Assembly (NCBI GenBank): GCA_905209435.1
Contig: CAJLTE010000016.1
Coordinates: 1-44,289, forward strand
DNA length: 44,289 bases
Direction: 5' to 3'
DNA from: an uncultured Blautia sp.
Lineage (GTDB): Bacteria; Bacillota_A; Clostridia; Lachnospirales; Lachnospiraceae
Every line of letters starts with the position of its first letter. Within the stretch, counting starts at the first letter, position 1. The notes below the pieces were generated by a model. The model ran no database searches. It was not told where the DNA came from and saw nothing but the letters and a program-made list of their open reading frames with translations. A program made the translations under genes and the position numbers. Shown here in pieces: positions 39,692-43,050 of this stretch.

Positions 39692-40627
39692 TTACTCTCT
39701 CTTCTGTGCCAGCAATTTTCCAAATAATGCAGCCAGCACCTGCTGAAACAATGTTCCGATCATAACCGGAAACATTACCTCTCCCGGAAAATACGCAGCT
39801 GCGATCACTGCTCCTGCACTGATATTTCTCATTCCTGTGCCATACATCATAGAAACTGCCGTACTGCGGTCTCTTCTGAATACATAAGCCACCAGCCATC
39901 CCAGCACATATCCCGAAGCAGCAAGCACCAGTATCGTCATTGCAACCTTTACCCTCTGCATATTCATATCCCGGATATAAGGGGCAACCTTAGATGAATT
40001 AGAGGTTACCACAAACATTAATGCCAGTTTTGAAAAAGGCGCCAGTTTACCTGGCCATGTTTTCATTACCTTTCCATCTGTAAACTGATTCAGAGTCATA
40101 GCTGCAATCGCAGGCAGCGCCACCATAAATACCAGTTCCCGCATCATCTTCGTCGGATCCATTGTCACTGCAGAACCGATCAGAATCTGCAGCGTCGCCG
40201 GTATCAGAAATGGTGCCAGCACTGTATCCAGCACTACCAGAGATAGAGACAAAGGACTGTTTCCCTCATAAATAGTGACCCACATCAGGCTCACAACTGC
40301 AGTAGGAACAGCAAACTCCAACACCATTCCTGTGATCAGCTCCATATTATCGCCAAAGAAAAGATGTCCTGCTCCACATGCTGCCGCGGGAATGACTACA
40401 TGAAGCAAAATCATGATCGTAACCAGCGGACCCGGATGACGAAATACATTCGCCACATCTCTAAACCGGGATTTCAATGCCCCGGCAAATGTCATAAATG
40501 CAAACACGGCCGGCACATATGGCAGACCGTGTTTAGCAATATCGGGAAAGCACACTCCCAGTAACAGACAGGTTGGTGTTACCAGTGCCATCCACTTTTC
40601 TATAAAACTGTTAAATCTTTTCAGCAT
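39692..40627 (-). CDS. BASS (bile acid:sodium symporter) family transporter
   Basis: A 311-residue polytopic membrane protein with about ten hydrophobic segments. The stretches FMTFAGALKSRFRDV, EFAVPTAVVSLMWVTIYEGN and SMMYGTGMRNISAGAVIAAAYF resemble the BASS family, whose crossover helices carry an Asn/Gly-rich motif. Members move organic anions such as bile acids, pantoate or keto acids with sodium; the substrate here is unknown. It starts 26 bases after the ABC ATPase with AGGA as ribosome binding site, so it is probably the last gene of that operon. Confidence 0.82.
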   Translation of the reverse strand: MLKRFNSFIEKWMALVTPTCLLLGVCFPDIAKHGLPYVPAVFAFMTFAGALKSRFRDVANVFRHPGPLVTIMILLHVVIPAAACGAGHLFFGDNMELITGMVLEFAVPTAVVSLMWVTIYEGNSPLSLSLVVLDTVLAPFLIPATLQILIGSAVTMDPTKMMRELVFMVALPAIAAMTLNQFTDGKVMKTWPGKLAPFSKLALMFVVTSNSSKVAPYIRDMNMQRVKVAMTILVLAASGYVLGWLVAYVFRRDRSTAVSMMYGTGMRNISAGAVIAAAYFPGEVMFPVMIGTLFQQVLAALFGKLLAQKRE

Positions 40628-40652: not shown

Positions 40653-41393
40653 TTACAAAACTTTTGAAAGAAAATCTTTCAGTCTCTGGTTCTTCGGATT
40701 CTCAAAGAATTCTTTCGGAGCATTTTCCTCCTGAATCTTACCGTCATCAATAAAAAGAACTCTGGTAGCTACTTCTCTGGCAAAGCCCATCTCATGGGTA
40801 ACTACCACCATTGTCATACCAGACTGTGCAAGCTCTTTCATTAACTCCAGAACCTCTCCAACCATCTCGGGGTCAAGCGCGGAAGTCGGTTCATCGAAGA
40901 GCATCACATCCGGATTCATAGCCAGTGCACGTGCAATGGCTATACGCTGTTTCTGTCCGCCTGAAAGCATATTCGGATAGGAATCTGCCTTATCCGGAAG
41001 GCCTACACGTTCCAGAAGCTCATCTGCTTTCTTGGAAGCTTCCTCTTTTGTCATCAGTTTCAATTCTACAGGTGCCAGCATAATATTTTCTTTTACTGTT
41101 TTATGAGGAAAAAGATTAAACTGCTGGAACACCATACCTATCTTCTGACGATGTCTGTTAATGTCAACTTTCGGGTCTGTAATATCAGTCCCCTCAAAAA
41201 GGATCTGCCCACCCGTAGGGATCTCCAGAAGATTTAAGGATCTCAGGAAAGTAGATTTACCGGAACCGGACGGACCGATGATGGCAACTACTTCTCCCTG
41301 ACAGATATCTGTTGTAATTCCGTCCAGAACCTGATTGGCGCCAAAGGCTTTTTTCAGATCCTTGACCTGGATCAGTACATTCTTATCGCTCAC
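40653..41393 (-). CDS. polar amino-acid ABC transporter ATPase
   Basis: GlnQ/HisP-type ATPase of 246 residues: Walker [10 protein letters not shown] (40-48), Q-loop [10 protein letters not shown], signature LSGGQKQR, Walker B VMLFDEP, D-loop SALD and switch His in VVTHEMG. The GTG start at 41393 overlaps the permease stop by eleven bases. It energises uptake of an amino acid delivered by the binding protein at 42156-42944. Confidence 0.95.
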
Positions 41394-42090
41394 TGGTTCT
41401 CAGTCTCCTTTCCAGTTTATTCATACCCCATGTAAGGATTCCAACGATTACAAGGTAGATTACCGCTGCTGCCATTAATGGCCAGAACGCGTTATAGGTA
41501 CGACTCTGGATCAGCATAGCACCCTTTGTCAGATCCATCATACCGATGTAACCGATAATGGATGTCTCTTTGATCAGCACGATAAATTCATTTACCAATG
41601 CCGGAAGAACATTCTTAAATGCCTGTGGAATAATGATCAGACGCATGGTCTGGCTGAAATTCAGTCCAAGGCTTCGTCCTGCTTCTGTCTGTCCCTGATC
41701 AATAGACATGATACCGGAACGAACAATTTCAGCAACATAAGCACCTGAGTTGATACCAAAGGCAAGTCCGCCTACAATGATCTTATTAATGCTTACAGAA
41801 CCAAAAATTACAAAGTTCATGATCAACAGCTGAATCATAGTCGGTGTTCCACGGATCACTGTCAGATAAACTCTGCAGATTGCATTAAGAATCTTAAAAG
41901 ACCCTGACTTATCGTGTGCGGAACGAATGATCGCTACAAGGAAACCGATGATCAGACCAACAATTACCGCAAATACAGTGATAATAAGAGTTGTTTTCAA
42001 ACCATCCAGAAGCCAGAGATAACGGTCATCTTTAATAAAGTTCAGATAAAAATCATTTTTTATACTTGCTAATATCATAGGATTATTCAT
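41383..42090 (-). CDS. polar amino-acid ABC transporter permease
   Basis: HisM/GlnP-type permease of 235 residues with about five membrane helices. It contains the family motif for ATPase coupling, [22 protein letters not shown] (EAA loop), and the N-terminal GTPTMIQLL segment. AGAGG lies 5 bases before the ATG. Only one permease gene is present, so the channel is presumably a homodimer. Confidence 0.95.
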
Positions 42091-42155: not shown

Positions 42156-42944
42156 TTATTTCTTTACAATGATAACCTGGCTTGCGTTTGCATAAGTATC
42201 TGTGAAATCAACGCTGGATTTACGATCTTCTGTTACAGTCATACCTGCTGCACCGAAGTCAGCCTTACCGGACTGTACTGCCGGAAGAATAGAGTCAAAC
42301 TCCATATCCTCAATCTTCAGTTCATATCCAAGCTTATCACAGATTGCCTGAGCGATATCTGCATCGATACCTACGATATCATCGCCTTCATGATACTCAT
42401 ATGGCTCAAACTCAGCATTAGTAGCCATTACCAGTGTTCCATTGGAACGATCAACATCTTCCGGAGATTCATACGGAGTTTTTCCTGCATCATCGCCAAT
42501 GTAGTTATCCATAATGCTGTCAATTGTTCCGTCATCTTTCAGTTCTTTCAGAGCTCCGTTGATCTTATCAAGAAGTTCGTCATTGCCTTTCTTTAAGCAA
42601 ATAGCATATTCTTCTTCCTCGAATGGCTCATCCAGGATCTTGAGGTCATCATTGTTCTCAACAAATTTCTCAGCAGGCTGTGAATCAATGATCACACAGT
42701 CGATCTGACCTGCTTTTAATGCCTGAACAGCTTCGCTTCCTTTATTGTAACGTTCTACTGTAGAGCCGTCTTTCTCATAGTCAGATGCATCAAGGTCACC
42801 TGTTGTACCAAGCTGAACACCGATAGTTGCTCCTGCAAGGTCATCCTTAGATTCAACTTTCTGAGCTGCTGATACGCTTCCAGCCATGGAAACTACCATG
42901 ATCGCACTGAGTGCAAGAGCTGCAAATCTCTTCTGATCTTTCAT
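42156..42944 (-). CDS. amino-acid ABC transporter binding protein, circularly permuted SBP fold
   Basis: Extracellular solute-binding protein of the bacterial family 3 (polar amino acid) type, but with the halves swapped. The ATG at 42944 (AGGAGG 7-8 bases upstream) gives 262 residues. Signal peptide 1-26 or so (ends SVSA). Residues 31-150 (SKDDLAGATIGVQLGTTG ... LKDDGTIDSIMDNYIG) correspond to the middle and C-terminal part of ordinary family members. After a linker (151-167), residues 168-262 (NGTLVMATNAEFEPYEY ... GMTVTEDRKSSVDFTDTY ... QVIIVKK) correspond to the canonical N-terminal half. All segments of a complete fold are present once. There is no lipobox Cys, although Gram-positive binding proteins are usually lipoproteins. 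Confidence 0.92.
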   Translation of the reverse strand: MKDQKRFAALALSAIMVVSMAGSVSAAQKVESKDDLAGATIGVQLGTTGDLDASDYEKDGSTVERYNKGSEAVQALKAGQIDCVIIDSQPAEKFVENNDDLKILDEPFEEEEYAICLKKGNDELLDKINGALKELKDDGTIDSIMDNYIGDDAGKTPYESPEDVDRSNGTLVMATNAEFEPYEYHEGDDIVGIDADIAQAICDKLGYELKIEDMEFDSILPAVQSGKADFGAAGMTVTEDRKSSVDFTDTYANASQVIIVKK

Positions 42945-43050
42945 CTTTCTTCCTCCTCGCATCCGAAAGTATAGTTACTGCCGCTGTCATTTTTCCTTAC
43001 AAAACAGCAACGTATAATTATGCGTTTCGGTTGTATATTTTTTGTTTTTA

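Follow-up and report, generated by a model that had tools for sequence, protein, structure and literature searches.

Solute-binding proteins of family 3 (PF00497), including GlnBP, TmArgBP and AncQR (4zv1), are composed of two halves, here termed A and B, and are partnered by a permease and an ATPase. A comprises the first part of the large lobe and the first hinge strand, while B comprises the small lobe and the C-terminal part of the large lobe; in canonical members A precedes B. In GlnPQ, the binding domains are fused to the permease. The isolated domain 1 of TmArgBP (6gpc, 6y16 and 7a99), which we take to be an engineered, man-made construct, has its large lobe in one continuous chain. To our knowledge, natural circular permutations have mostly been recognised between proteins too distant to show their origin. 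Circular permutation between distant type II binding-protein families has already been published (PMC2395249); the proteins concerned are less than 24% identical, whereas the canonical and permuted proteins described here reach ∼80% identity. No report of a natural permutation within family 3 was found in the full-text literature searched, a body of text that excludes most subscription papers and bioRxiv.

The window, that is, the whole stretch of 44,289 nucleotides analysed, derives from an uncultured Blautia sp. and carries on its minus strand, as for all window features given below, an open reading frame of 262 codons (42156–42944), with an ATG start at 42944 and a TAA stop at 42156–42158. 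An alternative in-frame ATG upstream, at 42962, would add six residues. The reading frame, together with Pfam and PDB alignments, identifies the product as a circularly permuted family 3 protein consisting of a signal peptide, B, a linker and A. The signal peptide (residues 1 to ∼27; 42864–42944) is recognised from its sequence, is modelled at a pLDDT of ∼50 over residues 1–20 and shows no lipobox cysteine in a pattern scan. B follows (residues 29–151; 42492–42860), then a linker that connects the two former termini (residues 152–167; 42444–42491), delimited by an alignment of 35 B-A proteins, and finally A (residues 168–262; 42159–42443), in which the first hinge strand now forms a free C-terminal end, as indicated by Pfam, PDB alignments and the predicted model.

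The SBP_bac_3 profile (PF00497) matches the protein with 127.1 bits against a cut-off of 26.4, in two separate stretches, the best of which places residues 171–262 on profile positions 1–92. The canonical order of PF00497 is not found, residues 29–151 corresponding to the later part of canonical chains. The best relative in the PDB is AncQR (4zv1; E 3e-50 over the whole sequence), to which residues 168–262 align at positions 9–104 (85.6 bits) and residues 29–151 at positions 108–233 (88.2 bits); the B half also superposes on this structure and is 42% identical to it over 122 residues. Among the best 60 of 117 PDB matches, only the tandem GlnPQ SBD1-SBD2 (6h30), with its canonical A-B-A-B order, has a best stretch spanning both halves, as expected for a permutant. 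All segments of the family are present in swapped order with the old ends linked, and these sequence alignments confirm that the 262-residue protein is a family 3 (PF00497) solute-binding protein that has been circularly permuted. This bears out the swapped order proposed in the earlier note: the second half of the family (residues 29–151) stands before the first (residues 165–262), and a linker at about residues 152–167 joins the old termini. The collinear HMM alignment that would have spoken for the ordinary fold order was not obtained, as Pfam gives two swapped pieces and no collinear coverage.

The same note had placed the cut at the hinge crossover, which is nearly right, although the exact site lies slightly further on. 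Residue 261, where A ends, corresponds to residue 95 of GlnBP (1ggg), and residue 28, where B begins, to residue 96 (8hnj). In a GlnBP study (PMC13229503), the first hinge strand is given as residues 85–89 and the small domain as residues 90–180, and on these borders the cut falls about six residues beyond the first hinge strand. The window protein shares its halves, its ligand-site residues and its permease and ATPase partners with canonical family 3 proteins and differs from them in the order of the halves, the linked old ends and this cut. Of the 14 NCBIfam families listed, seven match in two stretches, six in one and one in none. None of their curated whole-protein cut-offs (TIGR01096, GlnH, ArtJ and others) is reached, the highest score being that of TIGR01096 (152.6 bits against 256.35), and a ligand assignment through NCBIfam was therefore dropped. 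The OpuAC glycine betaine-binding protein (2b4l) belongs to a different sequence family, and its profile PF04069 gave no match to the window protein up to E 0.001.

A monomer model was predicted with a pLDDT of 88.3 and a pTM of 0.78. Its B half superposes on 4zv1 with 1.9 Å over 122 residues (28–150 on 107–232), and its strand 252–261 forms the C-terminal hinge strand. When whole canonical proteins are compared with the model by a sequential aligner, only partial superpositions are obtained (about 165–172 residues at 3.5–5 Å), as must be so for a permutant. Foldseek, run against fold libraries other than the viral one, gives TM-scores, normalised by query length, no higher than 0.47 in the best 50 rows, which is explained by its alignment in sequence order.

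Taken together, sequence and model make it likely, with a probability of roughly 0.85, that the swapped-half protein adopts the two-lobed clamp typical of the family, captures a polar amino acid between the lobes and passes it to the adjacent importer. The large lobe would be formed by one continuous stretch running from the end of B through the linker into A, instead of by two separate segments as in canonical proteins, with the rest of B forming the small lobe. This resembles the continuous large lobe of the isolated TmArgBP domain 1, to which the A half matches, although that construct has one lobe only and the window protein two. One covalent crossover between the lobes would be left instead of the canonical two, and the first hinge strand, now a free C-terminus, would insert into the small lobe with no peptide bond linking the two. 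As in canonical receptors, binding of ligand would shut the lobes, and this closed state would dock on the permease. Both chain ends are expected next to the hinge, on the side of the small lobe, and an N-terminal anchor or a fused permease would be tethered at this position. With regard to origin, the gene may descend from an in-frame tandem (A-B-A-B) trimmed of A at the front and of B at the rear, in which case the former junction of the two copies would now serve as the linker.

The genomic context is that of a polar amino-acid ABC importer. Directly behind the permuted gene lie an amino-acid ABC transporter permease (41383–42090; BPD_transp_1, 75.9 bits, and HEQRo_perm_3TM above its cut-off) and the ATPase of the same importer (40653–41393), for which the closest NCBIfam family is GlnQ at 329.4 bits, below its cut-off of 379. 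These are followed by a gene for an SBF/PanS-like (SBF-family) transporter (39692–40627), identified by profile matches. A permease and then an ATPase stand behind the B-A gene at 64 of 72 loci, some genomes being counted twice; at the remaining eight, the permease or ATPase match is missing, the permease match is doubled or a second B-A gene intervenes. In one such arrangement (L125:1924-3684), two adjacent B-A genes precede one permease–ATPase pair.

Relatives with B-A fused to the permease (B-A-TMD) resemble GlnPQ-type transporters in this fusion, but the binding domains of the latter are canonical. The fusion occurs in 26 of the at least 81 Lachnospiraceae genomes with a B-A gene; all 26 frames of 500–597 residues, G201 aside, are B-A-TMD, and an ATPase adjoins the fusion in the examples whose loci were retrieved. 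Longer frames were also observed, with B-A-B-A fused to the permease in L149:592-2928 and with B-A-B-A, permease and ATPase in a single frame in Blautia schinkii (L081:964-3678); the binding units of these two may be either the inner A-B or two B-A pairs.

A Gram-positive binding receptor should need an anchor. Of 43 B-A proteins, 22 have a lipobox in front of B in a pattern scan. The other 21 are the window protein, which lacks the lipobox cysteine that follows the signal peptide of Gram-positive binding lipoproteins, and 20 relatives, one of which (L020) is truncated at a contig end. The loss is seen within a Blautia group comprising the window signal peptide (42864–42944) and L001–L015, L017, L021, L024 and L040, while other genera keep the lipobox.

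A survey of homologues, as suggested by the earlier note, shows that the swapped order is conserved. In a first scan with one genome per species, 53 related loci were obtained, of which 42 are B-A and the other 11 canonical A-B. The B-A loci bear the names Blautia, Fusicatenibacter, Oliverpabstia, Drancourtella and Sellimonas and include one complete chromosome, that of Blautia parvula (L023). Full-length collinear matches to the window protein were counted by hand in 82 of 397 Lachnospiraceae genomes among the matches listed; with at most six candidates scored per genome and G201 (A-B-A-B-A-B-TMD) subtracted, at least 81 carry B-A. A PF00497 search of eight genomes found, in all eight, a B-A gene alongside a full-length canonical match.

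The permuted gene is under purifying selection. Its dN/dS is 0.017 and 0.015 against the two nearest loci, those of Blautia sp. MSJ-9 (98%) and Blautia wexlerae (97%), in a comparison of 10 loci in which farther pairs are saturated at synonymous sites; for the linker alone the two values are 0.021 and 0.030. The high identities to these two loci agree with a Blautia as the source of the window. T47, T48, D87, T236 and R241 are invariant in all 35 aligned B-A proteins, as are the linker residues G154, Y158 and P161. GTTG 46–49, D87, T236 and R241 are invariant and located where the family binds its ligand, and we take these positions, which lie in both lobes, to hold the ligand in canonical relatives. 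The linker pattern Y-x-S/T-P is found in 95 of 113 B-A frames, with duplicates of the same gene counted, and is common to stand-alone and fused proteins of this main type, which points to one origin of the main type.

Other explanations of the locus can be weighed against these observations. An assembly or frame artefact might be suspected since three-piece proteins from metagenomes (43 BAB and 9 ABA among 121) resemble assembly chimeras. However, three-piece forms are found at none of the 53 loci, and 42 other loci, including one from a complete chromosome, each have a single open B-A frame; the comparison of the 53 loci refutes this reading for the window gene, and its probability is negligible. 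The frame or assembly error joining head-to-tail copies that the earlier note had raised is ruled out by the same B-A order in these 42 genome loci. It is also highly improbable that the gene is a decaying, functionless head-to-tail remnant of two binding-protein genes. Canonical paralogues alongside the B-A gene (in 8 of 8 genomes searched) and the lost lipobox of the Blautia group would agree with decay, but a dN/dS of ∼0.016, the invariant ligand-site positions across the 35-row alignment, and the conserved operon and occurrence of B-A in at least 81 of 397 genomes argue against it.

Two further possibilities accept a permuted, folded protein. In a domain-swapped dimer, A of one chain would pair with B of another; swapped elements are described for circularly permuted ribose-binding protein constructs (PMC10601554), and the single covalent crossover implied by the PDB alignment would favour such an exchange. 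We regard this as improbable, since the monomer, the one state modelled, is itself predicted at a pLDDT of 88.3 and a pTM of 0.78, and the common B-A-permease fusion favours an intrachain unit. Alternatively, the protein may be a free or membrane-held sensor or scavenger instead of the importer's receptor, as the window protein and its 20 relatives without a lipobox might diffuse from a Gram-positive cell. This is very unlikely given the lipobox in 22 relatives, the permease fusion in 26 genomes, and the permease and ATPase directly downstream. An intrachain clamp serving the adjacent importer is the reading that we retain.

The permutation posited by the earlier note is real, but it is not a lone case, being one among several in family 3. 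Among the loci retrieved, permuted genes occur in at least 14 of 398 Bacillota genomes: three of the main type, one with a B-A of the L137 type, five with B-A and a 34-residue linker, one with a second cut, three with a third cut and one with B-A-B-A-TMD; a possible fifteenth (G443) is truncated at a contig end. Cut 2 (L139:1216-2103; P0122–P0241) lies inside the small lobe, at position ∼63 of the B profile, and is present in all 120 homologues of the L139 protein among the matches listed, with source names including Coprococcus, Wujia and Agathobacter. Its model (pLDDT 84.6) fits TmArgBP (6ggp) over 172 residues at 3.0 Å. Cut 3 (L143, L148 and L157; P0242–P0300) lies at B-profile position ∼24, and named carriers are Serpentinicella and Desulfitispora; a lipobox is present in the examples inspected. 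Of the 120 homologues listed for the L157 protein, 55 have this cut, three lack the last piece, 61 are canonical and one is a tandem. Since related bacteria carry the family cut at two other places, it seems that evolution has opened this fold at new positions repeatedly.

In an 83-row tree, with A and B placed in one order for all rows and a bootstrap that had not settled, the permuted label requires nine changes on the best tree, at least four of which are forced by well-supported branches; a single origin of all permuted proteins is rejected on these forced changes. Four topology tests with uncorrected p values gave 0.034 for the main type with the L137 and cut 3 rows as one clade, 0.055 for the main type with the 34-residue-linker type (L164/L166), and 0.204 for the main type with the cut 2 rows. 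For the 29 main-type rows taken alone, the test does not reject a single clade (p 0.374), yet this clade is absent from the recovered tree, and a FastTree version shows weak support around the main clade. Nested within this clade (95/84) is a canonical A-B protein (L043:3851-4696), 76% identical to the window protein in its A half and 59% in its B half. Gain and loss of the permuted order therefore cannot be polarised there, and L043 is possibly a reversal, a recombinant or a remnant of the parent lineage. L137 falls with the cut 3 rows (97/26) in the 83-row tree but among canonical proteins (97/97) in a closer tree to which closer canonical relatives were added, so that the count of origins depends on sampling.

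The cut 3 proteins group separately (99/97) in the closer tree, on which three changes are forced. The canonical protein P0292, which matches PF00497 in one stretch, is nested in this group beside P0283 (100/97); it shares 80% identity with P0279 across 203 columns, and by eye the signal peptides of P0292 and P0283 look alike. The simplest reading is that P0292 is likely a reversal to the canonical order, the alternative being several separate gains of cut 3. Tandem canonical genes (ABAB-TMD in L150, ABAB in L153 and P0303) are possible intermediates of permutation, as is a 973-residue frame in L114 (913-3831) with three canonical binding domains and a permease (A-B-A-B-A-B-TMD); in the trees built, no tandem gene is placed as a supported direct sister of the window's clade. 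The BAB and ABA proteins (entries within P0002–P0118) were set aside as evolutionary intermediates, being likely chimeras of permuted and canonical genes. Among the 20 of 43 BAB proteins compared, several with differing N-termini have an identical C-terminal stretch (for example, 192 residues in P0040 versus P0025 and P0026; 156 in P0002 versus P0040) and some have no long stretch in common; the identical C-termini fit chimeras joined at conserved DNA, and in vivo recombination may also produce them.

On balance, we consider it fairly probable that the order of the halves is labile in Bacillota family 3, with at least four separate permutations at three cut sites that arose via in-frame tandem genes of a kind still extant, at least one full reversal (P0292, ∼80% identical to its permuted neighbours and with a look-alike signal peptide) and receptor–permease fusions tethered at the hinge. 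Profile-based annotation labels the permuted proteins as plain family 3. For the engineering of amino-acid sensors, they provide naturally evolved templates whose new termini lie close to the hinge. Permuted and canonical close homologues occur in the same genomes, together with candidate tandem intermediates and three cut sites that can be compared, and this makes two questions testable with natural material: by what route a permutation can spread while function is maintained, and what the second hinge crossover adds to the affinity of a Venus-flytrap receptor and to the speed at which it closes.
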